A stretch of DNA of 64,000 bases. Source: Neobacillus dielmonensis. GTDB taxonomy: Bacteria > Bacillota > Bacilli > Bacillales > Cytobacillaceae. The DNA is taken from positions 1 to 64,000 of the forward strand of contig NZ_HG942078.1 in assembly GCF_000612665.1 (NCBI RefSeq). The letters are read 5' to 3'. Each line of letters begins with the position of its first letter. Positions within the stretch are counted from its first letter, which is position 1. Below, one piece after another: positions 30,492 to 64,000 of the stretch. The translations under genes were made by a program, and so were the position numbers. The notes under the pieces were generated by a model. That model did no database searches, was not told where the DNA came from, and worked only from the letters and a program-made list of their open reading frames with translations.

Positions 30492-30534
30492 AAAAGTGTG
30501 TTTTACAAAAAAATCAAAATCGAGTGGTGAAACA

Positions 30535-44828: not shown

Positions 44829-45159
44829 CTAAGTCGTTTTTTTCCATGCATTAAATAAGCCATAGGATTATCAGTACTTTCAATGAATGATATAAAAGGA
44901 GTGGACCTCAATCGAAACAGGGTGCCGGAATAGGGACACCCTGTTTCTCATTATGGTATTTGTTGAATTTGTCCTATTGATAAGAGTCACAATAACTCTT
45001 AATTGTAGCTTCAGAGATTTTAATACAAATTTCATTACTTTTTTACAAATTTCTCCCTGTTTATGATACATTAGTAGCACAAGACACTGGGACGTTCTCT
45101 GCTTCACTATAACGAAAACAAGAACGGCTCCCATGTACAATTGGAACGGAGAGCTTATC
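44829..45159. other. Intergenic stretch with a strong hairpin
   Basis: Contains a perfect 11-bp inverted repeat GAAACAGGGTG/CACCCTGTTTC at 44914-44947 with a 12-base loop and no T tract on either side. No believable gene was seen here. Confidence 0.5.
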
Positions 45160-45783: not shown

Positions 45784-45790
45784 CCTACAG

Positions 45791-45822
45791 AAAAGAGACT
45801 GCAACCATTTGCAGCCTCTTCC
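45791..45822. terminator. Hairpin terminator between convergent genes
   Basis: AAGAGACTGCAA pairs with TTGCAGCCTCTT (one mismatch) with a short loop, followed by T-rich sequence on the minus strand. Confidence 0.7.
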
Positions 45823-46731: not shown

Positions 46732-46781
46732 ACAAGCCTCTCCCTGGAACAAAATAATGCTTTTTAAAACCTAAATATCAC

Positions 46782-46877
46782 TTATTTTGTTAATAATCGA
46801 ACAGCCAGTATCCCAAAACTATTTAGTATAACGATGAATATGAAACAAGCAATCATCCACTTCCCAAACCTAGACAT
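46782..46877 (-). CDS. 31-residue single-pass membrane peptide
   Basis: The ATG at 46877 has AAGGGG eight bases upstream. The product is MSRFGKW, followed by a strongly hydrophobic stretch of about 20 residues (MIACFIFIVILNSFGILA) and a short basic end. It is in the same direction and 50 bp upstream of the CPBP protease gene, so both may be on one transcript. Function unknown; it could be a protease substrate or partner, which is speculation. Confidence 0.55.
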   Translation of the reverse strand: MSRFGKWMIACFIFIVILNSFGILAVRLLTK

Positions 46878-47050
46878 GGCCAGCACCCCTTAGACGAGTG
46901 TAAATCTCCTGAGAAAAGACTAACATATCATAAGATAATAATAGTAATAATTTAACATATTGCGAGTTAAATATCATTAACAAATATACAAACCGATTTG
47001 CATATATTTTTTTCCCCTACTACTTTACTATCATAATTTAACGTTAGATT

Positions 47051-48061: not shown

Positions 48062-48369
48062 GTTGAAGGATCCTTCTTCCAGTTCTGATCTACTTGTAAA
48101 ACTTTCTATGCCACAATAACTATAGTATTAAATTATATAAAGTATAAAATGTCAATAATCTATTTTTCACCGGATACCTGTTCAATATTTAGAAATAACG
48201 TTTAGTTATTTTGTAACTATACTCCGAGTACGCTTTCTTATCATCTCCGCTCAAAATCCATTCTATCAATGTTTAATATTGTTATTTTCTGGATACAACG
48301 TTCATATGATGTACAAGCCAGCAGTGTCCGACTTCCTAGTTATATAACTTTTGAATAGGGGTCATATAG
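48062..48369. other. Divergent intergenic region
   Basis: 308 bases between the acyltransferase and the small exported protein. AT-rich; no gene, clear operator or hairpin was seen. Confidence 0.4.
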
Positions 48370-48666
48370 ATGAGACGTTTCATTTCCATTATTTTTGTTT
48401 TAATCCTTGTAGTTGTGTTGTCATCTACAAATCCGAAGCGGTCCGAGTATATTGACTGGATGAATCAGCAATCAATGGACCAGTCTTCCAACATTCTGCA
48501 GAAGGGCTTTTTGTCAGTGGCCGGAAAAACTATTTTCGATGCGGGAACCACAGAAAAGGACTATTACTTGTTTACCATCTATAAAACAGACTTTTCTGAT
48601 GTTGGTATGGGAACGGTCACCGCTCTGGGGATCTTTAATCAATTTATTCCGCTCTCAAAAAAATAA
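48370..48666 (+). CDS. DUF4359-like small exported protein
   Basis: A 98-residue protein with an N-terminal membrane or signal segment (FISIIFVLILVVVLSSTNP) and a small alpha/beta domain ending GTVTALGIFNQFIPL, which resembles DUF4359 proteins of Bacillus. Function unknown. A weak AGGGG site precedes the ATG. It is convergent with the large membrane protein gene and shares a terminator with it. Confidence 0.7.
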   Translation: MRRFISIIFVLILVVVLSSTNPKRSEYIDWMNQQSMDQSSNILQKGFLSVAGKTIFDAGTTEKDYYLFTIYKTDFSDVGMGTVTALGIFNQFIPLSKK

Positions 48667-48667
48667 A

Positions 48668-48704
48668 GAAAACAGGCTGACATCCTGTGTCAGCCTGTTT
48701 TATG
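48668..48704. terminator. Bidirectional terminator
   Basis: AAACAGGCTGACA pairs perfectly with TGTCAGCCTGTTT around a 5-base loop, with A and T runs outside. It lies between the ends of two convergent genes. Confidence 0.9.
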
Positions 48705-48705
48705 T

Positions 48706-50472
48706 TTATTCCACCTTTTCCACTTGGAAAACAGGAACCTGTACGGTTTCACCGGTATCCGTTGTGATGGTGTCATAGCTATTAAACGTACCAATGAAAT
48801 AAGAGCTATAATAGCTATTTATCTGTGAAGCACCCTTAAGGAGTAAATAACTAATTTCAGGCTGGTAAGTAGCATAATTATAGGTTTGGCTAATCTTTAC
48901 CAGCGGCCCTTTACTGGAGTTCGTTTCAATACTGGCATTAAACCGTACCTTCTGCCCGTAATACTGGGTAATATTCTGAACATTAATATCTATATAATCC
49001 ACTTTAATTTTTGAAAAGCGGAATTGCCCATAATAGTCTGGTTCATAGTAGGCCAACTCCCCTTCTCCTTGACCGACAGGGTTATCAACCAAAAGCATCC
49101 CATCCGGTTCGGCCGTAAGATTATCAGCCTCAACGTTAAGGATTTGGTCCAGCGTGTTGCCCTTGACCTCGTAAGCCATGTAACGGTGCTTGCGGGTGGT
49201 AGATTTAGCATCGACAAAAATCATTGGCACATCGGAACCAGTGAAGCTGTTTTTCAAATCCAGCTTATTAACAGTTGTACCACTTGGAAGTGTCCCGTTC
49301 GAAACTGTCATATCCTGTTCACCGGTCAGTTTGCCAAAATAAACGCTCCCATCCGCAGCAACAGCAGCCACTGCACTATCTGCCCCCCACTTATTTCGGA
49401 CATTGACGAACTGTGGAAATTCTTTGTCAGGATATAATCGCTGCAGAACACGAATTGGTTCATATCGATCCCAAGCCAAGTTGGTATCAGCAATTAGCTG
49501 TTCGGTGTCCTCTAACGGTTTCAGATCCTCATAGAGTTTCACCGCATCCTCATACTTGTTAACTTCTGCCAATTTCTTGGCATTTGATAGTAACTCATTC
49601 TTAGTTTTTTCAATATAGACGATGACATTTGATTCGTCCATTTTCGCTGACAGCTTTTTAATGGAGTTCGCCTGTTCAGCAAAGGCAGCATAGTCCTTAG
49701 CTTCCATAGAGGTTTTTAGGACCTTTAGTAAATACTCATCAAGCGTCGAGACCAGCCATTCACTGTCAATCGAGAAGCTAGATAGCATCCCGAACTGGCG
49801 GTTGGCTTCTGAGACAAGGTCTATTAATGATTCATCTGCTGTAATCAGTTGGTTCAATTGGTCCTGATAATATTTTAAAAATATGTCTTTAATTTCGTTT
49901 GTTTTGGCGAATTTGCCACCATAATATTCTGCAGGAATCTTATTTAGCTTGTTATAGATGGTTTCTTCATTATCCTTATTTTTTAGACTGGCAATCTCTT
50001 TACTTTTTATTTTTGAAAAATATGACTGTAAATCCTTATCGAGTCCTGTCAAGGCTAGCATTTCTTGATACATGTCTTTTTTGACTGGGCTTGCCCCAAG
50101 CCATTTTTTCTGATTGTTTTGCCATTCCTCATATATAACCACCAATTCTTCCAAATTCTCGTGGTCATAATCGTCGGCTGCTTTTTCATCCCAATCCTCC
50201 ATTTTCTCGCGGATAGGGGACAGGATGGATAGCTTTTCATTTATTTCCTTATTATGATCGGTAACCGCAACGTTTAGCTTTGCAGCCCGGAACATTTTTT
50301 CTGCTGCAACTAAATCACCTTTTTGAAAGAGATTCATGGCCTCTTCAAAAACAGACAGCTTCTCATGAGCAAGAATAATCTTTCCACCAACGAGAACCAG
50401 CATAAGGACAAGCAAAATGAGAATAAAATTTCGTGAAAAGTGAACTTTTTTATAGACGGTCAGTTTAAACAT
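48706..50472 (-). CDS. Membrane-anchored protein with helical repeats, unknown function
   Basis: A 588-residue protein: a short cytoplasmic N-terminus, one membrane segment (about 16-36), a long helical region with TPR-like units (FEEAMNLFQKGDLVAAEKMF; also KYEDAVKLYEDLKPLED near 310), and a beta-rich outside C-terminus (about 370-588). Not recognised. It is 13 bp downstream of the zinc-ribbon membrane protein gene and is the last gene of the divergent set facing the VWA/tubulin-like/GTPase genes. Such layout suggests it is part of that system, at the outer face of the membrane. That is inference. Confidence 0.75.
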   Translation of the reverse strand: MFKLTVYKKVHFSRNFILILLVLMLVLVGGKIILAHEKLSVFEEAMNLFQKGDLVAAEKMFRAAKLNVAVTDHNKEINEKLSILSPIREKMEDWDEKAADDYDHENLEELVVIYEEWQNNQKKWLGASPVKKDMYQEMLALTGLDKDLQSYFSKIKSKEIASLKNKDNEETIYNKLNKIPAEYYGGKFAKTNEIKDIFLKYYQDQLNQLITADESLIDLVSEANRQFGMLSSFSIDSEWLVSTLDEYLLKVLKTSMEAKDYAAFAEQANSIKKLSAKMDESNVIVYIEKTKNELLSNAKKLAEVNKYEDAVKLYEDLKPLEDTEQLIADTNLAWDRYEPIRVLQRLYPDKEFPQFVNVRNKWGADSAVAAVAADGSVYFGKLTGEQDMTVSNGTLPSGTTVNKLDLKNSFTGSDVPMIFVDAKSTTRKHRYMAYEVKGNTLDQILNVEADNLTAEPDGMLLVDNPVGQGEGELAYYEPDYYGQFRFSKIKVDYIDINVQNITQYYGQKVRFNASIETNSSKGPLVKISQTYNYATYQPEISYLLLKGASQINSYYSSYFIGTFNSYDTITTDTGETVQVPVFQVEKVE

Positions 50473-50485
50473 ATGCTATTCCTTT

Positions 50486-51418
50486 CTACGAAACAAACCG
50501 CTTGAAATCGGGATCGTAATTGTACTTCACAGAAACCAAACTTTTTGTTTTATCGCCTAGGCTTCCCCAATTGATATCAGGATTGGCATGAAGAATACTG
50601 CAAAGCCTCAATACCCTTTCTTTTGGGAAATAGTCGAGATATTCCTCAATAAACTCTGAAAACTCCATTATATAAAGCTTCATTCTCAGTGCCGTTCCCG
50701 CCACCGTAATCAGGGAGTCCATTCCAAAGTCCCTAATAACCTCTTCTTTAAATTGAACAAAATAGCCAATACATTTTTTGGTCACCAAGCTGCGATTAAT
50801 TTTGATGGCCTCTAATGTATACGTGACAAAATCTGGGTCATAGCCTGAGGGAACAAGCCCTTCAATCTCCAGTTCCATATCACTGCGCAAGATCATATCA
50901 TTCAATAACTTTACCTGACGTAACTTTATCGCATCGTTCAAGATAAAGTCGCCAATTTCGCGATACTTTTCATATGCCATTGATAGCATGTTATCCCTCG
51001 CTTCTTCCTCGGCCAACACCGTATCATAGTGGATACCGGACTTTATTTTTGAAAGGTCACTACGGAGCAGTAACTTAAGCTGTATGAAGTTTTCAGATTT
51101 AAAGTAGAAAAAGGTCAAAACCACATACAATAAACAAAAGACTAACCCGGCTATTAAGGAGTAGTACAGCGTTTTTACAGTAGGCGCACCGACAATTCCT
51201 ATACAGACCAAGATTAAAATTAGACAAGCTTCATTAAACAACTTATTTCTTACGATGGATTTTATCAGACTATCCAATTCCACAAAGGTGGAGCCGCAAG
51301 TTGGGCAGTGATGATCTTTTAACACAGAGTAGCGATTGCATTTTTTGCACATTTTCAGCTTTTGAAAGCGGAACTTGGTCCGATTCTTTTTCGTCAATTG
51401 TACTGCCTGCTTAGCCAT
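50486..51418 (-). CDS. Zinc-ribbon membrane protein, unknown function
   Basis: A 310-residue protein. The N-terminus has a basic run and a zinc ribbon (CKKCNR and CPTCGS, about 25-45), followed by two membrane segments (about 65-110) and a helical cytoplasmic domain. Not recognised beyond that. ATG 51418 has a GGGGG site and overlaps the preceding small gene by eight bases (ATGGCTAA), so the two are coupled. The zinc ribbon recalls the one in the GTPase of the divergent operon. Confidence 0.75.
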   Translation of the reverse strand: MAKQAVQLTKKNRTKFRFQKLKMCKKCNRYSVLKDHHCPTCGSTFVELDSLIKSIVRNKLFNEACLILILVCIGIVGAPTVKTLYYSLIAGLVFCLLYVVLTFFYFKSENFIQLKLLLRSDLSKIKSGIHYDTVLAEEEARDNMLSMAYEKYREIGDFILNDAIKLRQVKLLNDMILRSDMELEIEGLVPSGYDPDFVTYTLEAIKINRSLVTKKCIGYFVQFKEEVIRDFGMDSLITVAGTALRMKLYIMEFSEFIEEYLDYFPKERVLRLCSILHANPDINWGSLGDKTKSLVSVKYNYDPDFKRFVS

Positions 51419-51560
51419 TGGCTTCCCCCTCATTCAGCATGATGATTAATTCATCATCGACTTCTTGAAAGTTGCCGCTGTTTCGTTTATTTTTCATCAA
51501 CTTATAAGCTTTCCAACAAAGAATGATTACTAGAAGACTAGTAAAGCCAATGCTATACAT
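51411..51560 (-). CDS. Small single-pass membrane protein
   Basis: 49 residues: one membrane segment (YSIGFTSLLVIILCWKAY) and a charged tail. ATG 51560 is eight bases from AAGGGG; the frame's earlier ATG lacks such a site. It starts the divergent minus-strand set and overlaps the zinc-ribbon gene. Confidence 0.7.
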   Translation of the reverse strand: MYSIGFTSLLVIILCWKAYKLMKNKRNSGNFQEVDDELIIMLNEGEANG

Positions 51561-51780
51561 ATAAAATTCCCCTTTTGTTTTATTATGTGACAATTTTCCA
51601 CAAAATTTCCCATTATTTTACCAAAAAATACATTACCTTATATTATTCTAGTACTATTATAATATTTCTAGACGAGAATTGTTTGGGAAACTACTGGTAA
51701 CGGTGGTAAAATGGTAGTATCATGCAATTTTTGCGGTGATGGATCGAAATTACAGGAAAACTGCTTAGTGGGGGTTCACA

Positions 51781-53550
51781 ATGTTTAAAAAATGGATTAG
51801 TAGTTTTATTGTCATCACTATTCTTCTTTGGCATTTCAGTTTGCTAAATTCACTGGCGGCCAGCCCGATAAATTCCAGCTCCCGGATTGAGGGAATGCTG
51901 GTTGTGGATGTCAGCAATTCGATGAAGAGCAGTGATCCCAATAATATTAGCAGTGAAGCGATGAAAATGTTTGTCGACATGGCCTCCCTTAAAGGAGATA
52001 AAATCGGGGCTATCGCCTATGCCGATAAAGTCATGCGTGAAAAGGCGCTTGTCTCGATAAATTCGGAACAAGACAAGCAAGATTTAAAAGACTTCATCGA
52101 TTCCGTGGACAAATATACTTACACAGATTTATCAGCGGGAGTGAAGGAAGCCGTTAAAGTTTTAGATTCCAGCCATGAACAAGGCTACTACCCGCTAATC
52201 GTTCTTTTGGCGGATGGAAATAACGAACTGGACCCTAAAGGCTCCAGGACACTCGACCAGGCAAACGCTGATTTGAATCAAGCAGTTGCCGATGCGAAAG
52301 CAAAAGGGTATCCGATTTATACAATCGGGTTAAACGCCAATGGCAAGCTCAATAAAGATGTCCTCTCGAATGTGGCATCCAGCACGAATGGAAAATTCTT
52401 TGAGGCGAATTCAGCTGACCAGCTTCCGGATATTCTCAGCGAAATTTTTGCCAATCACTTAAAATTAAAAATCGTTCCGGTGGACGAGATGGTGGCAAAT
52501 GGTGACTTCCAAGATGTAAAAATAAATGTCCCGAACGAAAATGTCTTAGAAGCCAACATTTCCATGATTTCCAGCCAGCCAGTGGAAGTGAAGCTCGTGG
52601 ATCCATCTGGCAAAGAAGTCCCTATTCCTTCCGACCAAGCCCTGCTTTCTCAATCACGGACTTATTCGATGGTGAAGCTCACCAAGCCGCTACAGGGAGA
52701 TTGGACGCTTAAAGTCAAAGGAGTTCCCCAAGATAAGATTGATATCAACCTGATCTTTAACTACGACTTGCAGCTAAAAATGGACCCACTATCCAAGCAA
52801 AGTTACAAGTCTGGAGATACGGTGAAAATTAATGCCTATTTTGAAGATAACGGGACCCAATTAACAGATACAGCCATTTATAAATCAATGAAATCCAAAG
52901 TTTTAGTAAAGGATCTGGACAATGGAAAAACAGAAGAGGTCAGCTTATCAGCTGGAGATAAAGGCTTTTCCGGCCAGTTTAAACTGGGGAATTCAAGCAG
53001 TTATGAAGTAAACGTAAAAGCAGAGGATAACAGTTTCTTCCGTGAAACGGCACCGCAAAAAATTACGGTGCAAAAAAAGGCTGCTGTACCTATAACAAAA
53101 TCTAAAACAGATGAAGATAAACCATTCCCATGGCTAACAGCAGCTCTCATTGCCTTGGGTGTCCTAATAATGGCTGTCTTGCTCTACTTCCTAGTTAAAA
53201 AGTGGAAAGAGAACAACCGCGGCTTCAGCGGACAAATGGTGGTTGAAATAAAGGATGAAGATACCGGTGAACGATCCAATCCGCAATATAGAAAATTAAA
53301 AGGGTTTAAAGGAAAATTCCAACTTCATCAGCTATTGGGACTAAATCCGGAATTTGCCGAGACCAATCAAATTGTCTTTAAACCAGCTGCCGGTGATTCG
53401 CTACTTATTATAAATCAATCCAACTGCACTATTGAAAAAAGCGGCAGGGCGATTGACGCTAAGAAAGGCCAGATCATTAAACGGAACGACCGCTTGAGAA
53501 TTGTTTTAAAACAAGTGAATAAATCCGTTTATATTGAATATATCAGTTAA
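51781..53550 (+). CDS. Secreted/membrane VWA-domain protein
   Basis: A 589-residue protein with a signal peptide (cut near NSLAAS), an outside von Willebrand factor A domain (about 36-225) with intact MIDAS residues (VVDVSNSMKS, Asp43-Ser45-Ser47; later LLADGNNELD), a beta-rich part (about 230-440), one membrane segment (about 452-474) and a cytoplasmic C-terminal domain (about 480-589) that is beta-rich and could be FHA-like, without clear proof. The ATG has GGGGG six bases upstream. It heads the plus-strand operon with tubulin-like and GTPase genes. It may sense outside or membrane state by metal-dependent ligand binding. Confidence 0.85.
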   Translation: MFKKWISSFIVITILLWHFSLLNSLAASPINSSSRIEGMLVVDVSNSMKSSDPNNISSEAMKMFVDMASLKGDKIGAIAYADKVMREKALVSINSEQDKQDLKDFIDSVDKYTYTDLSAGVKEAVKVLDSSHEQGYYPLIVLLADGNNELDPKGSRTLDQANADLNQAVADAKAKGYPIYTIGLNANGKLNKDVLSNVASSTNGKFFEANSADQLPDILSEIFANHLKLKIVPVDEMVANGDFQDVKINVPNENVLEANISMISSQPVEVKLVDPSGKEVPIPSDQALLSQSRTYSMVKLTKPLQGDWTLKVKGVPQDKIDINLIFNYDLQLKMDPLSKQSYKSGDTVKINAYFEDNGTQLTDTAIYKSMKSKVLVKDLDNGKTEEVSLSAGDKGFSGQFKLGNSSSYEVNVKAEDNSFFRETAPQKITVQKKAAVPITKSKTDEDKPFPWLTAALIALGVLIMAVLLYFLVKKWKENNRGFSGQMVVEIKDEDTGERSNPQYRKLKGFKGKFQLHQLLGLNPEFAETNQIVFKPAAGDSLLIINQSNCTIEKSGRAIDAKKGQIIKRNDRLRIVLKQVNKSVYIEYIS

Positions 53551-53562
53551 GCAGTCACATCC

Positions 53563-53590
53563 TGTCAGGTCCATTAACAAGGGCCTGACA
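53563..53590 (+). other. Intercistronic hairpin
   Basis: TGTCAGGTCC pairs with GGGCCTGACA (one G-U pair). Only a short T-poor tail follows, so it is more likely an attenuator or mRNA-stability element between the VWA and tubulin-like genes than a full terminator. Confidence 0.55.
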
Positions 53591-53662
53591 AAATAATGAA
53601 GCTAAACGTTCATTTTTAACGTCCATATTTTATAGGAATTGCAGCCAAGGAGGAAAAATGGC

Positions 53663-56600
53663 ATGAGAGCAAGTGTAAAAGAACACATTCAACAATTAGA
53701 TGTCTCCATGGGTGGAGGAATCATTTCAGAGAAGATCCGTGTTGATACGATTGACAATCCGATGCTTGTGATTGGACTTGGCGGTACAGGGATTGATGCC
53801 CTATTGAGACTGAAATATCAAGTCAACCGCAGGTTTAAACTACCGGAAGATCCTATTTCCAAAAAGAAAAAGGAAAAGCCCAATAACATTGAATTTTTGG
53901 CGTTTGAAACGAATGAACAGGACAAGAACAAAAAGTACAAGGGAATTGGATTAGATCCAATTAAAGAATATGTTGAACTATCTAACCCGGAAATCGGCAG
54001 CGTGCTGTCCAACCGCAGCACAATGGAGCCATATATTAAGGACTGGTTATCACCGGAATTGTCGATAACAGATGGAATCAGTGGGGCATCCGGTATCCGT
54101 CAAGCAGGTCGACTGCTGATGTTTACTAAAATCAATGAAGTCGTACAAAAGATTGACACGAAAATCAATGCCGTACTCGAAGGAACAGGAAAGCGGCTTT
54201 ATGTCTTCATCCTCACCGGACTTTCTGGCGGAACAGGAAGCGGCTGTTTCCTTGATATCGCCTACATCGTTAGAGGCATTATGACTAAAAAATATGGATC
54301 GGCTGGTTCTGACCGTCTAAACATCCTTGGCTATCTCTTTACCCCAGACGTGAATTTGTCCAAGAAAGGGATCAGCTACCATACAGCCGAATATATCGAA
54401 AAGAATGGCTATGCAGCGTTAAAAGAGCTTGACTATTGGATGAATACAGAAGAAAGAAATGAACGATGGATTCAGAAATACGGCAATATGCTGACGGTAA
54501 ACTCGCAATTACCACCATTTAACCTTTGCCATCTCATCTCAGGGACCAATCTCGGTGGAAAATGGCTGGAGAATGCGTATGATTACTGCATGAATGTAAC
54601 GGCGGAAAACATCACGAACTTCATGGCCAGTGAAGATAAATTCTCTGATGAATTTGCGATTCATGACTATATCAGTAATATCCACGCAAATATTGCTGGA
54701 ATGCATAAACCGTATGCAGCTAATTACCTATACAACGTTATCGGCGCTGCTACTGCCGAGATTCCTATTGAAGAAATGACAACATATGTCGGTTATAAGT
54801 TATTTGAAAAAATGAACAGTATGTTTGAGTCCAATCCGGACCAAACAGACGTCGATCAATTTGCGAAGAAACTCCGGATTGATCCGGATTCGCTTCACCA
54901 ACGATTTAATGAGCGTGTTCCTGAAGCCCTTTCCGGCTATGAAAATAGTGAACGGTTCTCCTATAACAATGTGATTAAAACTTCTGTAACCAATTTAGAT
55001 GAGGAATTATCGAGAGAATATTTACTTAAGGCAAAGGAACAATATCGCAAATGCAAACGACAGCTTCCAGGCGAAATTATGGAAGAGTTCCGCCGCCAAG
55101 TCGAAAGAATGTTTTTAAATCCGAAAAAAGGGCCAATATATGCATCACGCCTAATTTACTCCAAGGATAGTTTTTGTTTATTAACCACTATCCAAGTATA
55201 TATTGATGGTTTGCGCGACCGCTTAGAACGGCTGCCGAAAACAATTCAATCAGAACAGGAGTATGCTTTCAATAAGCTGGAAGATGCCAAAAGTGCCTTC
55301 ATTTCAAAAGATAAGAAAAAGAACGCTTATATTGAGGCTAAGCTAAATGAGTACTATGCCCGTGCCGAAAAAGAACGAATTGAAGAAATGATTGAGTTCT
55401 ATGAAGACCTGTCTCAGCAAATCAACAGCCAAAATAACAAGATTTATGAAGTTTATAAAGAAATTCTGGATGCGCTAAAAAATATTTTCCAAAAGAACGC
55501 CAATATCTTGATCAATGGTGAAGAAGTTAGACAGGACAATAATGCGACCTACTACTGGCAAGTCGTCAGCGTTCCAGATGTCGCCCGTGAAATCCAGAAT
55601 ATGTTTAACTCAAAAGATGGAGAGCTGCTAATCCAACATTGGTCGGAAATGCTCCTTGAAAAGTCAGCTTTTTGGGTTAATGAAACCGATATTGATATCA
55701 TCGGCACTGTTTCCGATTTCTTAGGTGACCAGTTCGGCGAATTGATTACCAAATCAATGGAGGACTTTTTACGGATTAAATACGGCGACGATCAGCCAAT
55801 CGACCGGATTATTGAAGAAAGAATCGCAGCACGCCTTGATAAGGATGCACTGCCTGTATTCCACCTGAGGGACAGTCATGGCTCACTCCACTTTCCAGAG
55901 TGGGGATTTGTTTCCCTTCCTGTGAAGGCGCCAAACATTTATGCAGGGATCAAAAATTATCAGAAGAGTTCGTTCTCTAATTTCACGGTTAAGCAAAGTG
56001 AACTCAAGAATCGAATTTTCTGGTTAAATACGAAAAATGGCATTCCATTGTATTCCTATTCACCATTGCAAAAGTATGAAGAAACCTATGAAAAAACGAT
56101 ATTAGAAAAAGAAGGAATTGGCCGCCATCTCGTGCAAACAGAGAAGGATAACTGGGCTTATCTCCCTTCCCCAATCCCTGAAAGATCATGGGGAGACACG
56201 TACCGGAATGAGCGCCTCCAGGCGTACAACGCCAGCGTTCGCAGCCTATTTGATCAAGCCATCGGGTTTAAGGTGATTACCGAGAAAACGTCTGAGCAAA
56301 ATACGAGTGCAAGATTCCAATGCCATTTTACAAAAGAAATCAGCATTTCTGACCTATACGCTCAGCATGAAATTGATCCAAAACAACTCAACAAGGCCAG
56401 CCTCGGAAGCCTAAAACAAGTTCACCGGAAGCTGAAGGAACTGTTTAACGGCGGCATGGATCCAGACGGCGCTAGCGATATCTTTGGCAGTACCAATGTG
56501 GATATGGCCAAGGAGAACTTTATCCGCTCTCCTAAACTGATTGAGCAAGTAAAACAAGAAGTAACTAAATATAGTTTGATCCAAGAAAAAATGACCGAGA

Positions 56601-57046
56601 TTGAACAATTTATTGCTGCTCAAAATGAAAAAGAAGTTTCAATCAACAAATTTATTCAAGCGGTCTATACCAAAACGATCCGCAAACGTGGTGCATTATA
56701 CGTTTACGATAAGGAGATTGAAGAAGACGCATGGGAGCCGCTAGTTAATTTAATGAAGACTTCCAAATTTGTTGACTTTGAACTTTATCAAGCGTTTAAA
56801 GCATTACCGACAAGGAAAATGGACCAGTTGGAAAAGAAATCAGACCAACGAAGCAATGAAATGATTGCCCAAGAGAACGCAACTGAGCTTGTCGCTGCAT
56901 TAGAAGAAATGGCTGCCACTTATGCAAAGGAAAAAGAATCCCTTGATTACGACTGGCAGGACTTGGTAAATGGCGAAGAGCTTTACAGCTTCTATAAAGA
57001 AATCATGATGAAAGTAAATGACATGCTCCGTCAACTAAGGTCTTAG
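53663..57046 (+). CDS. Large tubulin-like GTPase-fold protein
   Basis: An 1127-residue protein. The N-terminal part has the FtsZ/tubulin-type elements: VIGLGGTGIDALLR (about 36-49), GASGIRQAGR (141-150) and the nucleotide loop GLSGGTGSGCFLDIA (186-200), which matches the GGGTGS/TG loop of the superfamily. This is the domain known as the 'tubulin-like' (Tubulin_2) family. The rest is helical with coiled coils (about 520-620), then an alpha/beta region, and a Glu/Lys-rich end. No membrane segment. ATG 53663 is nine bases from AAGGAGG; an overlapping out-of-frame ATGGCATGA was rejected. It probably binds GTP and may polymerise or form a switch with the VWA and GTPase proteins. Confidence 0.85.
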   Translation: MRASVKEHIQQLDVSMGGGIISEKIRVDTIDNPMLVIGLGGTGIDALLRLKYQVNRRFKLPEDPISKKKKEKPNNIEFLAFETNEQDKNKKYKGIGLDPIKEYVELSNPEIGSVLSNRSTMEPYIKDWLSPELSITDGISGASGIRQAGRLLMFTKINEVVQKIDTKINAVLEGTGKRLYVFILTGLSGGTGSGCFLDIAYIVRGIMTKKYGSAGSDRLNILGYLFTPDVNLSKKGISYHTAEYIEKNGYAALKELDYWMNTEERNERWIQKYGNMLTVNSQLPPFNLCHLISGTNLGGKWLENAYDYCMNVTAENITNFMASEDKFSDEFAIHDYISNIHANIAGMHKPYAANYLYNVIGAATAEIPIEEMTTYVGYKLFEKMNSMFESNPDQTDVDQFAKKLRIDPDSLHQRFNERVPEALSGYENSERFSYNNVIKTSVTNLDEELSREYLLKAKEQYRKCKRQLPGEIMEEFRRQVERMFLNPKKGPIYASRLIYSKDSFCLLTTIQVYIDGLRDRLERLPKTIQSEQEYAFNKLEDAKSAFISKDKKKNAYIEAKLNEYYARAEKERIEEMIEFYEDLSQQINSQNNKIYEVYKEILDALKNIFQKNANILINGEEVRQDNNATYYWQVVSVPDVAREIQNMFNSKDGELLIQHWSEMLLEKSAFWVNETDIDIIGTVSDFLGDQFGELITKSMEDFLRIKYGDDQPIDRIIEERIAARLDKDALPVFHLRDSHGSLHFPEWGFVSLPVKAPNIYAGIKNYQKSSFSNFTVKQSELKNRIFWLNTKNGIPLYSYSPLQKYEETYEKTILEKEGIGRHLVQTEKDNWAYLPSPIPERSWGDTYRNERLQAYNASVRSLFDQAIGFKVITEKTSEQNTSARFQCHFTKEISISDLYAQHEIDPKQLNKASLGSLKQVHRKLKELFNGGMDPDGASDIFGSTNVDMAKENFIRSPKLIEQVKQEVTKYSLIQEKMTEIEQFIAAQNEKEVSINKFIQAVYTKTIRKRGALYVYDKEIEEDAWEPLVNLMKTSKFVDFELYQAFKALPTRKMDQLEKKSDQRSNEMIAQENATELVAALEEMAATYAKEKESLDYDWQDLVNGEELYSFYKEIMMKVNDMLRQLRS

Positions 57047-57059
57047 TTTATCGGTTTTT

Positions 57060-57089
57060 TAGGCCACAAGCGTTATTGCCTGTGGCCTA
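57060..57089 (+). other. Intercistronic hairpin
   Basis: TAGGCCACA pairs perfectly with TGTGGCCTA around a 12-base loop, 14 bases after the tubulin-like gene. T residues follow after a gap, so partial termination is possible. Confidence 0.6.
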
Positions 57090-57139
57090 TCATACCTATT
57101 TTTTATCGGGAATTGTTTCTCTATGGGGGGAAAACAACA

Positions 57140-59491
57140 TTGAGAGAACTTTTGCAAAAATATGCCATTAACTTTTCTAATCAGCTGGAAAAAATGACAG
57201 TTGAAGAAAATGAACAGCGAAGTGTCAACCACCCAATCGTCTTTTTGTTTTTGGGAGATAGCGTCAAAGATGCTATGAAATCAATTATGGAAATCAATGA
57301 AGAAAGATGGCAAAACAGCTCAGGTGTGCTCTATTTTCATGCATATCAAACAGAGACACTGCAGAACAGCCAGAACGTTGTTTCCTTCCAGCTTCCAGGC
57401 AAAGGACTTGACCGCAAGACGATCCGCCGGGGCTTATATGATGCCTTTAACCAGGACGACAACAAGCTTATTGAACTAAATAAGACCTTTCGAAAACTTT
57501 CCACAATGATTGCGGAATATGGAAAGGTTTATTCTTCTTTAATCAAACTAAACCTGTGTGTGGTAACTGCCATTGACGACCCGTCCAATATCCTGATTCA
57601 AGAATTGACCCTGCTGCTAAAAAGCATTCTTCAAGAATCGTTTAGAACAGTGGAAGTCGACCTATATGGTTTGATAACAGAAAAACAGGACAGCGGCAAC
57701 TTTGCCTACTCCACCTCACTCGGGATTAGCTTTCTTAAAGAGCTGGATCGTTATCAAAGTGATGAATATACTTTTAGCGGTGAGCTCCAACTAACAGAGG
57801 ACCACCTGCGGCTGACCATTACACACCCTTCTTCCCCACTGTTTGATATGGTGTATTTATTAAGCGACAAGAATGAAGCCGGATTAATTTCGAGTGATGC
57901 TGCCCAGCAAAACTATGAGATTATTAGCAATCTTAATCTATTAAAGAATCGCAAGATGATAACAGATTACCATGAAAAAATGGACAGCTATAACCACCAG
58001 GACTTTAAAAAGGGAATCCGAGGAAGCTTGAATGAACCTGTTTATGCTTCTGCTGGCTTTGCAAAAGTAAGCCGGCCCAATAAAGCCATTGCCCTAAATG
58101 CGGCTAGCCACTTTTTTGATGAATATTTGTCGTCTTTAAAACAAGCAGCGTCAGAAAGACGCGACACTGTCCTGAGCCTGTTGGGACTCACAGAGGCAAA
58201 CTTTCAAAACTACTATCAGAAGATCTTGCCGTCTAGTGACAAAATTAACGATATGAATAGTTTAATGGGTGTGACCAATTCCTATCAGGCTATCAAAAAA
58301 ATGTCCGTTCGGGAGGCGGAAGAATACTTATTTGAAGGCGGTACAGAACGTTTTTTCGCTGTTAATTTTGAAGAACCAGTCCGTGAACAGCTGCAAACGT
58401 TAAATTTGAAATCCGTGATAGAGCGCTCCCTAGAAGAAAACGTCATTAACAATGAAAAATACGGCCTGTACTGTGCCTTTTTTTGGACCGCCCATTCCCA
58501 AGAGGCCAATGTAAGCCTAGTGGATGAAATTCAAAAATGGCTGCGGGACGTAAAAAATGAAAAATTAGAAGCCGAAGCACAAGCAGAACAGCAATACCAG
58601 CGAATGGTCGACCACTGTGATTTCAAAAAAAGCTATCTACCTTTTTCAGATAAAAAAAATTTCAGCAGCTTCTCACAGTTTTTCTTCGTAGAAGTGTATG
58701 GCATGAAATATGAATTGCTGCGACTTGAGGTAAAGGAGGCCATTTTAAAACAATACCTTATAGTCCTAGAAGAAATACATCCTTACCTTAGGGCAAAGAT
58801 TGACCTGATCGACCAGGCAGAATCACAGCTCAAACAAGCAGCTATTGAGAGTTTGGGGGATTCCAATGATTATCTGGACAAAAATATCCACGAATATTAT
58901 GGCGGAATCATTAAGAGCATAACTACCAAGCTTAAAGAAAAACGAGGTCCGCACTTTTTTTCAGAAGAGCGTTTTTTTGGTAATCTGCTGTCGATACTTG
59001 ATAAAGGGGCGAAGGCACTCCTAGAACAACTGCTTGACGTTTGTAATCGAGAAGTCCTTACCCAGGAAGAGTTTCATCGCAGCTTTGAAGATGAACTTTT
59101 AGAAAGAACCAATATCATGACGCATTATGATGACACAAAGGTATTAACTAAAGAGGACCTGTTCAAGCAGCTTTATAGGCGCTTGCATGAAAACTCAGCC
59201 ATTCAAATTGAGGTTTTTAACTATTCACAGGAATACCGTTATGAAGAAAGATACTTTTTTGGCGATTTTTATAGCAAATTCATGAGATATGCTCTCGAAA
59301 AAGAACAAGAAGCACGCCAATTTAAAGTGGGCTGTGCTCATGAAAAAACGGCGAGCGGGATCGAAAAGCTTACTCTTATGGGTGGGTTTCAATTGAAGGA
59401 CTTGATGTATTACCAAAAAGGCCAAAAATATTACCAAACCTATACTGACAATGGATATGAGTTCCATTCTATAACGGAATCATACGCTTAA
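57140..59491 (+). CDS. Large protein of unknown fold, partner of the tubulin-like protein
   Basis: A 783-residue soluble protein I do not recognise. Residues about 1-280 look alpha/beta with hydrophobic strands (HPIVFLFLGDS, LIKLNLCVVTAIDD, VDLYGLITEKQ) and a segment PLFDMVYLLSDKNEAGLI that resembles, in place and pattern, the FNLCHLISGTNLGGK segment of the neighbouring tubulin-like protein. The nucleotide loop GGTGSG is absent. The middle and C-terminus are helical, with coiled coils. It could be a nucleotide-free tubulin-like partner; this is a weak inference. TTG 57140 is nine bases from GGGGGG and is preferred to the frame's first codon. Confidence 0.75.
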   Translation: MRELLQKYAINFSNQLEKMTVEENEQRSVNHPIVFLFLGDSVKDAMKSIMEINEERWQNSSGVLYFHAYQTETLQNSQNVVSFQLPGKGLDRKTIRRGLYDAFNQDDNKLIELNKTFRKLSTMIAEYGKVYSSLIKLNLCVVTAIDDPSNILIQELTLLLKSILQESFRTVEVDLYGLITEKQDSGNFAYSTSLGISFLKELDRYQSDEYTFSGELQLTEDHLRLTITHPSSPLFDMVYLLSDKNEAGLISSDAAQQNYEIISNLNLLKNRKMITDYHEKMDSYNHQDFKKGIRGSLNEPVYASAGFAKVSRPNKAIALNAASHFFDEYLSSLKQAASERRDTVLSLLGLTEANFQNYYQKILPSSDKINDMNSLMGVTNSYQAIKKMSVREAEEYLFEGGTERFFAVNFEEPVREQLQTLNLKSVIERSLEENVINNEKYGLYCAFFWTAHSQEANVSLVDEIQKWLRDVKNEKLEAEAQAEQQYQRMVDHCDFKKSYLPFSDKKNFSSFSQFFFVEVYGMKYELLRLEVKEAILKQYLIVLEEIHPYLRAKIDLIDQAESQLKQAAIESLGDSNDYLDKNIHEYYGGIIKSITTKLKEKRGPHFFSEERFFGNLLSILDKGAKALLEQLLDVCNREVLTQEEFHRSFEDELLERTNIMTHYDDTKVLTKEDLFKQLYRRLHENSAIQIEVFNYSQEYRYEERYFFGDFYSKFMRYALEKEQEARQFKVGCAHEKTASGIEKLTLMGGFQLKDLMYYQKGQKYYQTYTDNGYEFHSITESYA

Positions 59492-59594
59492 TGCAGTTAA
59501 AACATTTAAGGGGCTTGCTGCTGCATACCTTGCGAACCAGGCCGTAAGATAGTTGCTCTGACTTATTAACTCTATATTGTAAGGAGCTTTGAAC

Positions 59595-60881
59595 ATGCCT
59601 GTCAGAAAATTTAGCTTCCTATTGTTTATTTTTAGCCTAGTTGCCGGTATCATCGGGGCAATCATCGGCGAAGCGATACTGGCAAACTTTTATGGAGTTT
59701 GGCCCAATATCCTGCTTATGGGCGTTTATTTTGGCCAACTTGCCCTGATGGCTGGACTCTTTTGTTTATTGGCAGAAATCATCTCACCAGTGATAAATGG
59801 ACGAAATTGGCGCGTCGAATATTCAGGGCTTTCGTGGAAAGTTTTGGTCCCCTCAACACTAGTGATGTTATTTGCTGGAGGAGTCATTTTTCAATTCTTA
59901 TATTCTCTTAATTTCACAAATGTTAAACCACCAGATGATATTGTGTTGGTGATGGATATTTCGGACAGCATGAATAAGACAGACCCAGACCATGAGAGCC
60001 TGAAGGCTGCGGGCGAGCTTATTTCCAATATGAAATCCAGCCACCGTGCGTCGATCATTTCTTTTAACGAAAACGCCTTTGTCACAAAAGCGATGTTTAA
60101 AATAAGTAACAAGGACGACCGCGCGGATGCTATTGACCAGATTAACGCATTAGCAGCAAGCGGGAGCACAGATATTGGAAATGCTTTAGATACAGCGATG
60201 AAAGAGATAAACAGCCATGAAAAAGCCGGACGAAAACCGATGGTCATCCTGTTCTCCGATGGGTATAGTGAACTCGACCTCGACTCAGTCGTCGAACCTT
60301 ACCAAAACCAAGACATTGTCATCAATACCGTGGGCATGAGCAAGATTGACAAAGGCGGTGCCCAGCTGCTCAAATCCATTGCCTCCAGTACAGGCGGCTC
60401 GTTCCATGATGTCAAAAATGCAGATGACTTAAAAAAAGTGTTTGAAAAAATCTATCTAGAAAACCAAGACCGCCTGCTTGTGACTGAAAGATATGGAATC
60501 TTTAAAGACAGCACCTACCTTGCAGTCCTGCATGTTTTATTCATTACACTAATCGGCGGATTGTTTGGCTTGGCGCTAGGAATCCTATTTGACAATCGTT
60601 ATTTAGCAAAAAGTTACTCGATAACGGGTCTGGTTTCCGGTTTATTGGCCGGTCTCGTTCTTGAAATCGGTTTGCAGGACTCCTCTTTTCTCTCGGGATT
60701 TCCCTACCGGCTTGTGGCTGATATCCTGCTTACAGCAGCGACAGCTTTAGGTACGATGATCATTCCAATACGTGAAAAGTTTTCTGGCGGAAGGTCACAT
60801 CAATATAATGGTACGGATTCAGCTATACGAACTGAACCGCAGAGAAGAGATTCAAACAAACGAAACTTCGGCATGAAATAA
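59595..60881 (+). CDS. Multi-pass membrane protein with VWA domain
   Basis: A 428-residue protein: three N-terminal membrane segments (about 6-25, 38-63, 83-104), a VWA domain (about 113-300) with complete MIDAS (VLVMDISDSMNKTD, Asp121-Ser123-Ser125; SGSTDIGNAL; FSDGYSELDLD), then three further membrane segments (about 317-395) and a basic cytoplasmic tail. The VWA domain seems to lie between membrane blocks, on the outside if the N-terminus is inside. ATG 59595 is eight bases from AAGGAG. It is the second VWA protein of the operon. Confidence 0.85.
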   Translation: MPVRKFSFLLFIFSLVAGIIGAIIGEAILANFYGVWPNILLMGVYFGQLALMAGLFCLLAEIISPVINGRNWRVEYSGLSWKVLVPSTLVMLFAGGVIFQFLYSLNFTNVKPPDDIVLVMDISDSMNKTDPDHESLKAAGELISNMKSSHRASIISFNENAFVTKAMFKISNKDDRADAIDQINALAASGSTDIGNALDTAMKEINSHEKAGRKPMVILFSDGYSELDLDSVVEPYQNQDIVINTVGMSKIDKGGAQLLKSIASSTGGSFHDVKNADDLKKVFEKIYLENQDRLLVTERYGIFKDSTYLAVLHVLFITLIGGLFGLALGILFDNRYLAKSYSITGLVSGLLAGLVLEIGLQDSSFLSGFPYRLVADILLTAATALGTMIIPIREKFSGGRSHQYNGTDSAIRTEPQRRDSNKRNFGMK

Positions 60882-60913
60882 CAACACGAAATTAAGATTG
60901 TGGGTGATAACTG

Positions 60914-61552
60914 GTGAATTGGGAACCAATAACTTCCCCTGATCATGAAGTAAAGGATTTGCGAAAAACCGTAAGAGATTCGGAGATTCATTTAACCTGG
61001 TTTTGGTCAAAGGAAATTGATTTTGTCTATATTTATAAAGCCCCTGCGGATGCGATCCAGCCATTTGAAAGACTTAGCGAACAGGATATAAGGCTATATA
61101 CCCGTGAGGAATATAAAGCGAACCAAGGTTATTTGGGAAGGCTCGACGCTTTCGGCCGATACGCTTATCGCATTTTCCCCTGCCAGAAACGAGACGGAAA
61201 ACTAATTGTCTATGCTCAGGAAAATGAAAACAATCTCATTTTTATTACGGGTGCCAAAGCAAAGATAAAGTTTTCCATTTTAATGAAAAAGGCTTTTTTG
61301 CGTCCAAAAAAGCGGGTTCTCATCTCTATTGATACGGAATATCCGCTTGATAAGGACCTGTTAGTTTATGTAAAAAAAACCGGTTCGCCCCCTATTTCAG
61401 TTGAAGATGGAACCATCATTCCCTTTGTCCGCGACTTTCCGGCGGGTAAAACGGAATTTCCTGAATTTGAAATTAATAAGGACGAATATATACGAATCTT
61501 TTTCAGCAATGGTAAACAATCAGCAGAAGTTTATGAGCTGATTCCAGAATAA
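60914..61552 (+). CDS. Beta-rich protein of unknown function in the GTPase operon
   Basis: A 212-residue soluble protein that looks all-beta, with two sheets (about 20-95 with IHLTWFWSKEIDFVYIY, and 125-212). The pattern recalls fibronectin-type or similar sandwich domains but no clear family is recognised. The start is GTG 60914 with a GGTGATAA site. It lies 32 bp after the VWA gene and 13 bp before the GTPase gene, so it is most likely an operon component that bridges them. Confidence 0.72.
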   Translation: MNWEPITSPDHEVKDLRKTVRDSEIHLTWFWSKEIDFVYIYKAPADAIQPFERLSEQDIRLYTREEYKANQGYLGRLDAFGRYAYRIFPCQKRDGKLIVYAQENENNLIFITGAKAKIKFSILMKKAFLRPKKRVLISIDTEYPLDKDLLVYVKKTGSPPISVEDGTIIPFVRDFPAGKTEFPEFEINKDEYIRIFFSNGKQSAEVYELIPE

Positions 61553-61565
61553 GGAGAGACCCAAC

Positions 61566-62834
61566 ATGTTCGGTATACTGAAAAGAATGTTTGAAAAAAA
61601 GCCTCCAGAAAATACAAGATTGCCATACTATGATATCGTCTGCCCTTACTGCTTTTCCAAGTTTCATCATGAGGAAGTTGTTTTCCGTGCAGCACACCAT
61701 CGTGATGATGATGAAACGCTGGCCCTTCAGGAAGATGAAAAGCTAAACAATTACAGAGCAAAGTTTGGTCTGGCACCAATCGATGAGCTTGAGGCGATTA
61801 TTGATCCTTCAACCATAAATGAAGAAAATAAGATTTACTCTGACCACGTTTTGATGGGTGTATCCGATCGTTATGCCGTTGTCACGAAAAATCGTCTTTG
61901 CCCTAGCTGCCACAATGAGCTTCCTGTTACAGCGGGTAAATATCCCAGCAATATTGTTTCAGTTGTCGGAGCTACTTCTGTCGGAAAATCTGTTTATATT
62001 ACATCACTTATTCATACGCTGCAGCGTGTGACAGCAAACAATTTTAATGCGGCTTGTCTGCCGCTGAACAATTCGATTAGCAAAAAATTTCGGGACGAAT
62101 ATGAAATTCCGCTGTTTGAACAAGGCAATCTGCTAGAAGCAACGGCTGTGACCAAACGGCAGGAACCGTTTATCTTTCAATTTGTGTTTAAAGATGAGCA
62201 TAAGGCTCCGCTGACACTTGTATTTTTTGATGTCGCCGGTGAAGGTATGACCGAAAAAGAATATCTGCAGATACATGCTCCGCATATCAAAAATTCAGCT
62301 GGCATTTTATTCTTGGTCGATCCGATGCAGATTCGTGCCATTCGTGAAAAATTAATCCATCAGATGGGTGATAATCCAGGGAAAATTGTTGGCTTGGCAT
62401 CGGAGCCTCGCGATGTAGTCATCTCCTTATTTGAAGATTTCATCGCTCACCAAGAAAATAGTAAAACCGACATCCCGACAGCAGTTGTCTTAACCAAGAG
62501 TGATTTACTAAATGCGTTAAGCTCTGATGATGGTGAATATATCCGTTCCAATAGCAATGTGTTCCACAATGTCATTCATAAAGGCCATCTAAATCTTGAT
62601 GAATATGAAAATATCAATGGTGAAGTTAGAAGATTCCTAACAAAGGTAGATATTCCATTTGTGGATTCCATTGATGTCTACTTCAGAGATGCTTCTTACT
62701 TCGCAATTTCCGCTTTAGGAAGCAATCCAGTTGGCCAGCAGGTAAGCGGGATTATCAGTCCAATTCGGGTAGATGAACCGTTCATTTGGCTGCTATACAA
62801 GCTTGGATACATCGAAGGGAGACATGAGCAATGA
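61566..62834 (+). CDS. Zinc-ribbon TRAFAC-type GTPase (DO-GTPase2-like)
   Basis: A 422-residue soluble protein. A split zinc ribbon (Cys26/Cys29 in CPYC and Cys112/Cys115 in CPSC) comes before a GTPase domain: P-loop GATSVGKS (135-142), switch-2 FFDVAGEGMTEKEY (DxxG), ILFLVDP and the guanine motif VLTKSD (TKxD). The layout matches the family that Pfam lists as double-GTPase type 2 (DO-GTPase2). A AAGGAG site precedes the ATG. Its stop codon overlaps the start of the GAP1-like gene (ATGA), so the GTPase and its probable regulator are made together. Confidence 0.85.
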   Translation: MFGILKRMFEKKPPENTRLPYYDIVCPYCFSKFHHEEVVFRAAHHRDDDETLALQEDEKLNNYRAKFGLAPIDELEAIIDPSTINEENKIYSDHVLMGVSDRYAVVTKNRLCPSCHNELPVTAGKYPSNIVSVVGATSVGKSVYITSLIHTLQRVTANNFNAACLPLNNSISKKFRDEYEIPLFEQGNLLEATAVTKRQEPFIFQFVFKDEHKAPLTLVFFDVAGEGMTEKEYLQIHAPHIKNSAGILFLVDPMQIRAIREKLIHQMGDNPGKIVGLASEPRDVVISLFEDFIAHQENSKTDIPTAVVLTKSDLLNALSSDDGEYIRSNSNVFHNVIHKGHLNLDEYENINGEVRRFLTKVDIPFVDSIDVYFRDASYFAISALGSNPVGQQVSGIISPIRVDEPFIWLLYKLGYIEGRHEQ

Positions 62835-64000
62835 GCGGGAAAGTTCAACAACAGCTTTATACACGGGAGCGGGGCGGCATCTTTTCCACCACAGATGGAT
62901 ATGACACCATCGCGATTTCCGAGGGTCTCCAGCCTTCGTTTGTAAAAAAATACTTACATCCGTTTTGTATCTATCAAGCGCCAAGAGCGTTAACAACTCG
63001 CGGGGAAAAAGACGCTTCTGCCTATCCGGAGGCTGTCACCTTATTTCAACCGGAAACTGGTGACCTTGTTATTGGGCAAGCCGTTTTCGTACCGGCCGAT
63101 TTTACCGGCCAGCGCAGCACTTATTTTATGCACAACTATATCATTCCCGAGGTTCGGAAGGAAGAATGGATCAAACAGCCTGAAAAGCTGTTTCAACTAA
63201 ACGGCTATCAAACTTCCTTTAATATGGAACAGGGAAAAACGTTGCCTGAACTTAAGACGGTTAGTTATGGAACAGAGGATGTTCTCACTAAGAAAGAGGA
63301 GCTGCTGGCGGAATTAGGCATTAATGAAGACGACTTTAGGCAGCTGCTTTTCGCTGTGTTAACCTCCGTCTCTGGGAAAAAGAAAGTGTTTATCTCCTTG
63401 AATGTTCCATTGCTGGATTATTCGAAGGCTGCGCTAAAACTGTTGGAATTGCTCTACCTTTACTTGCCGTATGCCCACCGCCGAAAATTGGGGGCGATGA
63501 CGTTCACAAGCGATCCAGAGGGCAAAAACTATATCCACGTCATGTTTTATGAGCCAGGCACGTTAAACACAGCGGACCGTTCGATTGAAAAACAATTTAT
63601 TTTTGATTTTCCGAACAATCGGATTTCCGGTGTTGATATACTTGGTCAAAAGCATGAGTATCTGGATTTTGCGCTTGAGCGCTTTGCACAATCCAAGCGA
63701 ATGGACGACTTCTTTGAGTTTGCCGAGACCGCCTTGTCAGGTCTGCCTGAAGAACAAAGGCTTGATCTATCATGCTACTATCATTTGACTGACCTGTATT
63801 TAACCTTAAATGGCAGCGATGCCTCTATTTATGAAAAAAATAAGGTTGGTTTTTTAAATGGACTTGTTAAATTTTTGCAGGTGAACAGTGATGAGAAATT
63901 GCCTTTGGTGAAGCTGTTTGTCAAAATTCTGACTGAGGAAAAATATGTACGGGATTCGAGCATGGCGCTAGAGTATATCCGTTCTGTGGTGGCTATAAAT
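62831..64000 (+). CDS. GAP1-N2-like protein, partial (runs off the window)
   Basis: An open frame starting at ATG 62831 continues without stop to the last base of the window, giving at least 390 residues. The start reads QQLYTRERGGIFSTTDGYDT, then IAISEGLQPSF, ALTTRGEKDASAYPEAVTLF and LPYAHRRKLGAMTFTSDPEG, which match my knowledge of the GAP1-N2 family, predicted to act on the TRAFAC GTPases they are paired with. It overlaps the GTPase stop codon by four bases. Further genes of the operon are probably outside the window. Confidence 0.8.
   Translation, partial: MSGKVQQQLYTRERGGIFSTTDGYDTIAISEGLQPSFVKKYLHPFCIYQAPRALTTRGEKDASAYPEAVTLFQPETGDLVIGQAVFVPADFTGQRSTYFMHNYIIPEVRKEEWIKQPEKLFQLNGYQTSFNMEQGKTLPELKTVSYGTEDVLTKKEELLAELGINEDDFRQLLFAVLTSVSGKKKVFISLNVPLLDYSKAALKLLELLYLYLPYAHRRKLGAMTFTSDPEGKNYIHVMFYEPGTLNTADRSIEKQFIFDFPNNRISGVDILGQKHEYLDFALERFAQSKRMDDFFEFAETALSGLPEEQRLDLSCYYHLTDLYLTLNGSDASIYEKNKVGFLNGLVKFLQVNSDEKLPLVKLFVKILTEEKYVRDSSMALEYIRSVVAIN

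Follow-up and report, generated by a model that had tools for sequence, protein, structure and literature searches.

Introduction

Published predictions of FtsZl1 operons go back to 2010, and those of DO-GTPase/GAP1 systems to 2020. In the sections devoted to these operons, Makarova and Koonin (Biol Direct 2010, PMC2875224) defined the tubulin-like family FtsZl1, described von Willebrand factor A (vWA), GTPase and OmpA genes in its neighbourhood, and suggested a role in membrane remodelling. A firmicute tubulin theme of GAP1-N2 systems was described by Kaur et al. (2020, PMC7159879) in the passages on this theme, nearly gene for gene as it is found here, and a function in biological conflict was proposed. 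A DO-GTPase gene is also reported from some psp envelope-stress operons of gammaproteobacteria (PMC11237479).

Here, we analysed a locus at the end of a 64,000-nucleotide stretch of Neobacillus dielmonensis DNA (contig NZ_HG942078.1, positions 1 to 64,000; hereafter the window) that encodes two vWA proteins, a tubulin-like protein and its large partner, a beta-rich protein, a zinc-ribbon GTPase and a GAP1 protein. It is almost certainly the Firmicutes tubulin-type GAP1-N2/DO-GTPase system. New in our analysis are a fuller gene list, a testable asymmetry between the tubulin-like proteins, a set of hosts that almost without exception carry the locus and, in the window's genus, its position in a slot of gene turnover beside a ZorA-ZorB cassette shared with one relative; its interest lies in its function, in a putative pseudo-tubulin partner and in near-core status in one genus.

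Results and Discussion

Gene content of the locus

Seven open reading frames on one strand run from 51781 to beyond 64000, exactly where a first-pass annotation, made from the sequence ahead of any database search, had placed six to seven genes in one direction. All three families named in that annotation, Tubulin_2, DO-GTPase2 and GAP1-N2, were matched in profile searches. For conservation we used 17 loci from a survey of 151 genomes of the window's family and 80 loci from a collection of species genomes (named loci), the latter being the best-matching 80 of 311 stretches that encode TUB1 relatives. The 97-row sets for TUB1 and TUB2 combine both sources; at least seven genomes occur in both, so the rows represent fewer than 97 independent ones.

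TUB1 (53663..57046, plus strand), predicted beforehand to be a tubulin-like protein of 1127 residues, is a Tubulin_2/FtsZl1 protein of that length with a Pfam match at 5.6e-76, and its nucleotide loops T1 and T4 are intact, each motif being present in 97 of 97 rows. The GTPase (61566..62834, plus strand) matched DO-GTPase2 at 4.2e-9, above the Pfam cut-off, and bears two N-terminal CPxC pairs, a P-loop GxxxxGKS, DVAGE and TKSD; DVAGE, which includes the conserved Walker B Glu, and both CPxC pairs of the N-terminal zinc ribbons are more than 95% conserved over 95 rows. Its frame overlaps by 4 bases with that of GAP1, which lies directly 3' of it (62831..64000, plus strand, continuing on the next stretch of the same contig to 65632 in window numbering). 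The 933-residue GAP1 protein matched GAP1-N2 at 1e-45 and GAP1-M at 1.5e-27, and a simple hydropathy scan placed a hydrophobic segment at residues 723-741, a predicted transmembrane (TM) segment beyond which the C-terminal part would be outside. A 2218-residue "GAP1 fusion" in one relative was rejected as an artefact, in which a run of N had been read as residues; it is still included in the GAP1 tallies of identity and TM prediction. GAP1 was without a predicted C-terminal TM segment in 6 of 6 loci that have GAP1 and lack VWA2. Sixteen loci with VWA2 likewise have GAP1 without the segment, which weakens a link between VWA2 loss and the TM segment, and two of the six TM-less GAP1 sequences are short, at 373 and 641 aa, and were probably truncated at the end of a contig.

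Both vWA proteins carry an intact metal-ion-dependent adhesion site (MIDAS), as had been foreseen. VWA1 (51781..53550, plus strand; Pfam VWA 1.4e-17) consists of a signal-like segment, an outward VWA domain, an MG2-like domain (MG2 at 3.5e-6, below the cut-off), one TM segment and an inward tail; YtkA was absent among its Pfam matches up to E 1. VWA2 (59589..60881, plus strand; 5.8e-21) has three hydrophobic segments on each side of the domain. The MIDAS residues are kept in more than 95% of 97 and 89 rows, respectively. The gene for a beta-rich protein, BETA (60914..61552, plus strand), was also found as announced, and its identity can now be refined. Its structure model (predicted local distance difference test, pLDDT, 93.4) had its best Foldseek matches, at E 5e-4 to 1e-3, in IGF1R and the insulin-receptor ectodomain, which bear fibronectin type III (FNIII) domains, and in NCAM FN3 1-2. 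At E 0.1, none of 38 members showed a Pfam fn3 match. Judged by its modelled fold, BETA is a tandem FNIII protein.

Two divergent genes that the first-pass annotation had overlooked belong to the conserved neighbourhood. ZnR (50486..51433, minus strand) has a zinc-ribbon-like N-terminus, in which Pfam zinc ribbons stay below the cut-off and four Cys are conserved above 95%, and two hydrophobic segments. TPR (48706..50472, minus strand) encodes a membrane protein with one N-terminal hydrophobic segment and a helical outward part; the name is one of convenience, as Pfam gives no TPR match, and NCBIfam indicates a BamD-like stretch at 8e-4. In the predicted topology VWA1 and VWA2 with their intact metal sites, the GAP1 end and TPR face outward, and the GTPase, the FNIII protein, TUB1, TUB2, GAP1-N2/M and the zinc ribbons face inward. 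No Rfam family reached its gathering threshold in 44000-64000. By eye, the divergent intergenic region contains blocks conserved inside lineages and no promoter type common to lineages, and no sigma class was assigned to it.

TUB2 as a putative pseudo-tubulin

The large partner, TUB2 (57113..59491, plus strand), had been correctly called as a gene and labelled "unknown"; that label no longer holds, as its sequence points to a tubulin paralogue that lacks the T1 and T4 loops and ends in a long helical part. The window copy matched Tubulin_2 at 2.2e-4, below the Pfam cut-off, and relatives in genomes G114 and G129 exceed it. When deeper TUB1 and TUB2 profiles were compared, they aligned over 372 columns (probability 90, E 1.4e-6); with 17 rows per side the comparisons were weak (probability 18, E 0.0013; probability 49, E 1.7e-4). 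The AlphaFold2 model built from 17 rows was poor (mean pLDDT 63), with long helices at 517-611, and in a Foldseek search with this low-confidence model CetZ came just 31st, at E 0.59. Given the poor model and the indecisive Foldseek result, the kinship rests on sequence.

These weak results, together with the sub-threshold window copy, would also fit a TUB2 unrelated to tubulin, that is, a coiled-coil partner with a chance weak match. Such an origin is very unlikely in view of the members that pass the cut-off, the deeper profile comparison and the two tubulin genes that Kaur et al. (2020, PMC7159879) report from Firmicutes loci in the passages on this system. The T1 motif is present in 0 of 97 TUB2 rows and a T4-like motif, anywhere in the protein, in 1 of 97, which argues for a degenerate paralogue. 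TUB2 thus appears to be a pseudo-tubulin in the sense that its nucleotide loops have been lost, rather than a nucleotide-binding member of the family.

At another site (L004:8703-9995), beside an MpsC gene, the window genome encodes a short FtsZ-like protein (430 aa, Tubulin 4e-13), and short Tubulin_2 matches of this type recur in many genomes of the family.

Co-inheritance and rates of change

The expectation that the genes are inherited together was borne out. GAP1-N2 was found in 28 of the 151 family genomes, a long Tubulin_2 protein in 21 and both in 17 (Fisher p 8e-12, uncorrected for kinship), and in 17 of 17 genomes with both the genes are adjacent and in the same order. These 17 loci contain ZnR in 17 cases, TPR in 15 and VWA2 in 14, VWA2 being missing in 3. 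Among the named loci, VWA1, TUB1 and TUB2 occur together in 80 of 80, accompanied by ZnR, BETA and the GTPase in 78 each, VWA2 in 75, GAP1 in 72 and TPR in 52; some absences are contig ends, and the TPR count is a lower bound, having been made with a profile from Bacillaceae rows, as was the TPR identity median below.

The 11 family genomes with GAP1-N2 alone all belong to one other genus. Their orphan genes encode proteins of about 734-761 aa with 30-33% identity to the window GAP1, and no BLAST match to the GTPase or the tubulins was obtained in the 11 neighbourhoods fetched. The 4 family genomes with a long Tubulin_2 protein alone (G126, G146, G117 and G016) carry another, distant type of FtsZl1 operon. 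Its gene order in G126, G117 and G016 is a vWA-like protein (747-765 aa, by eye), a tubulin-like protein of 1119-1165 aa and then proteins of 721-723 aa and 1277-1282 aa.

Median identities of Paenibacillus/Brevibacillus-type rows to the window proteins were 64% for the GTPase, 59% for TUB1, 50% for VWA1, 41% for VWA2, 37% for both TUB2 and BETA, 29% for ZnR, 26% for GAP1 and 24% for TPR. The GTPase and TUB1, the two proteins with intact nucleotide motifs, evolve most slowly, and the membrane or sensor parts (GAP1, TPR, ZnR) evolve fast.

Distribution and descent

Of 398 genomes sampled from the class, 61 had TUB1, spread over 9 of 146 genera. One Brevibacillus-like genus has full-length TUB1 as a single copy in 23 of its 26 species. 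The same holds for 95 of 197 Paenibacillaceae-family genomes, with one further weak match set aside, and for 26 of 60 genomes in the window's genus, where 8 additional weak matches include G126, G146 and G117 with the other FtsZl1 type. The labels "Brevibacillus-like" and "Paenibacillaceae" are derived from the named loci. In all four surveys each matching genome had one TUB1 match.

A TUB1 tree of 81 rows set 17 Bacillaceae rows apart from 64 others. Brevibacillus made up one side of a branch, as did Saccharibacillus; a single row with the name Bacillus lay inside Paenibacillus and may be misnamed, and the named rows nearest to the window were Neobacillus vireti and Bacillus sp. OV166. We read this as support for vertical descent with losses. 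For the Brevibacillus-like genus and for Paenibacillaceae, the locus has the look of a lineage gene retained by vertical inheritance. A TUB1 that is near-universal and single-copy in one genus and that appears to follow host phylogeny, unlike a roaming defence island, is a new observation of this work.

Genomic surroundings

In the window's genus the locus is flanked by a CAAX-protease gene (45823-46752) and a response-regulator gene (70895-71497 in window numbering). Where TUB1 is missing, these flanking genes are separated by about 0.4 kb in G110, by 3.7 kb with DUF5085 genes in G731 (whose flanks are 81% and 92% identical to those of the window, the highest of the flank comparisons), by an orphan VWA1 and a LysE-like gene in G709 or by 15 kb of other genes, glycan-type by eye, in G102. 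The locus occupies a slot of gene turnover in this genus. The orphan VWA1 relative that has only a LysE-like gene beside it between the locus flanks (L222:6257-8038) shows 57% identity, and second VWA1 copies lie 3' of GAP1 in G120 and G129.

Directly past GAP1, on the opposite strand and outside the window, are genes for a kinase-like membrane protein, ZorB and ZorA (L003:5683-9986, that is 65683-69986 in window numbering). ZorB, an OmpA-domain protein with one TM segment, matched its PADLOC profile at 7.6e-70 and OmpA at 6e-11; ZorA, a MotA/ExbB protein with a long tail, gave 3e-15 in PADLOC and 2e-7 with MotA_ExbB. The membrane protein matched PADLOC MkoA at 5e-4 and no Pfam family to E 0.1, and its kinase-like N-terminus shows, by eye, HGK at the place of the catalytic loop, which usually reads HRD. 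The ZorA-ZorB pair is the motor of Zorya defence, whose types are defined by the cytosolic effector, ZorC/D, ZorE or that of further types. No PADLOC match to ZorC, ZorD or ZorE was obtained among the 13 proteins scanned, a set that reached no further than ZorA.

These three genes, as open frames, occupy the corresponding position in Bacillus sp. OV166 too (L219:4604-8305; identity 48, 82 and 55%). Over the length of sequence fetched, none of the remaining 16 family loci has the cassette, and it was likewise missing within 7 kb of GAP1 in another 20 genomes from the class. ZorB relatives (E <1e-30) occur in 10 of the 151 family genomes and adjoin the tubulin locus in the window genome alone. 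We rejected ZorAB as a conserved element of the operon, since the loci examined show it next to the operon in two cases only, the window genome and Bacillus sp. OV166.

The downstream slot varies between loci. In G082, G089, G144 and G120 it holds genes for a large immunoglobulin (Ig)-repeat protein, a protein kinase and a PP2C phosphatase (Pfam was run on the proteins of G144 and G120). An FHA/DUF6382-type and a WXG100-type protein come next in G082, G089 and G144; the stretch for G120 stops short of this position. Convergent to GAP1 in relatives, L057:1374-5933 encodes WXG100, FHA/DUF6382, PP2C and protein kinase proteins, and L058:1032-8250 an Ig-repeat protein and a kinase.

Elsewhere in the window, 33921-36668 and 37324-40290 encode large, closely alike proteins with repeats of the YD/RHS type (by eye) that differ in their C-terminal ends, and 24925-31800 contains two similar groups of genes, in each of which a permease-like protein comes after a nucleotidyltransferase/kinase-like one (by eye), likely the result of a duplication.

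Proposed function

The best reading, to which we give just short of an even chance, is a GTP-switched envelope-sensing machine. The outward-facing portions of GAP1 and TPR would, together with VWA1 and VWA2, read the state of the cell envelope, which GAP1 and the FNIII protein would relay to the DO-GTPase acting as a switch. Under the control of this switch, TUB1 and TUB2 would assemble into a tubulin-like scaffold of two parts on the inner side of the membrane, in which TUB1 would bind GTP and TUB2, without the usual nucleotide loops, would be a partner, cap or anchor, and the output would be a local change of membrane or envelope. Domains, loop loss in TUB2, linkage and predicted topology come from the data; interactions, assembly, trigger and output are what we infer from them. 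Besides the domains and the gene linkage, we count in favour of this machine the identity medians, which we read as a fixed engine with adaptable sensors, the retention of single, full-length TUB1 in the Brevibacillus-like genus and in 95 Paenibacillaceae-family genomes, the TUB1 tree, and the DO-GTPase gene of the psp envelope-stress operons. Several points weigh against it. The locus sits in a turnover slot in the window's genus, where 34 of 60 genomes are without full-length TUB1, and is dispensable there; a sequence search for solved-structure relatives of TUB1, the GTPase and GAP1 found none; the TUB2 model and its Foldseek ranking are as poor as described above; and no experimental study of these systems was found in the open-licence literature. 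In the section on FtsZl1, Makarova and Koonin (PMC2875224) add that the family is without a confident T6-H7 region and might not form filaments.

The suggestion in the first-pass annotation of a membrane-to-cytosol signalling or defence machine fits the predicted topology in its membrane-to-cytosol part; defence is a possible role. An anti-phage or other conflict system, in which the sensors would detect phage entry and the switch would trigger tubulin-like superstructures or another lethal or protective output, was predicted by Kaur et al. (PMC7159879), who in the passages concerned group the system with those bearing conflict hallmarks. The turnover slot between the CAAX-protease and response-regulator genes speaks for an accessory, possibly conflict-linked, role in the window's genus, and the next genes are a ZorA-ZorB pair. 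However, among the loci examined that pair was seen only at the two named above, PADLOC gave weak partial matches only on the seven core proteins (HerA at E 0.003 for the GTPase, Csm2 at E 0.44 for GAP1), and one copy per matching genome, a vertical tree and presence in nearly all species of one genus are unlike a roaming defence system. We consider a conflict function somewhat unlikely; a mobile defence island is weakened as a description for the Brevibacillus-like and Paenibacillaceae hosts and may still apply in the window's genus. The same retention in the Brevibacillus-like genus, with strong conservation of TUB1 and the GTPase, would suit constitutive morphogenesis or membrane remodelling without stress sensing, for instance of a surface structure, linked to sporulation or in vesicle formation, after Makarova and Koonin. 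The named carriers are Paenibacillus, Brevibacillus, Saccharibacillus, Neobacillus and Bacillus. These genera are largely spore-formers. Yet full-length TUB1 is missing in 102 of 197 Paenibacillaceae-family genomes as well as in the majority of the window's genus, and no sporulation signal was found in the upstream regions, where promoter types were compared across lineages by eye. A constitutive role is, to our minds, rather improbable.

The envelope-sensing machine may be taken further, into a heterotypic tubulin machine in which GTP-binding TUB1 and nucleotide-free TUB2 would form a membrane scaffold gated by the DO-GTPase and the outward metal-binding VWA sensors. It would be a near-core envelope machine in Brevibacillus-like bacteria, paired in Neobacillus with exchangeable output modules such as the ZorA-ZorB ion-driven motor. 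We offer this speculatively and think it unlikely in its full form.

Comparison with described systems

The adjacent cassette resembles Zorya, as presented in the structural work (PMC11890865), in its MotA/ExbB protein with a long tail and its one-TM OmpA-domain protein, and differs in that its third gene encodes a kinase-like protein, with none of the three effectors recognised among the scanned proteins. With the FtsZl1 operons (PMC2875224) the locus shares a tubulin-like protein of large size that has T1/T4 loops, a coiled coil and a helical C-terminal part, a vWA gene, a divergent GTPase and, in several genomes, OmpA-domain genes; GAP1 and FNIII are not named in the sections on these operons. 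From the ZorB of the window genome we infer that the OmpA proteins of FtsZl1 operons, as characterised in those sections, may correspond to ZorB/MotB-like proteins.

The closest likeness, to a published combination that the first-pass annotation had left unmentioned, is to the system of Kaur et al. (2020, PMC7159879), which in the passages describing it has a zinc-ribbon DO-GTPase adjoining GAP1-N2, two tubulin-domain genes, two vWA genes (one of them multi-TM), an FNIII protein and a C-terminal extension of GAP1. Those passages do not mention the divergent ZnR and TPR genes or the loss of the GTP loops in the second tubulin. Their tubulin genes carry a C-terminal coiled coil; for TUB2 the likeness lies in the long helices of the model. 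One of their two vWA genes is fused to YtkA, whereas VWA1 shows an MG2-like match instead. Finally, Kaur et al. stress mobile neighbourhoods in these passages, in contrast to the vertical pattern that we find outside the window's genus.

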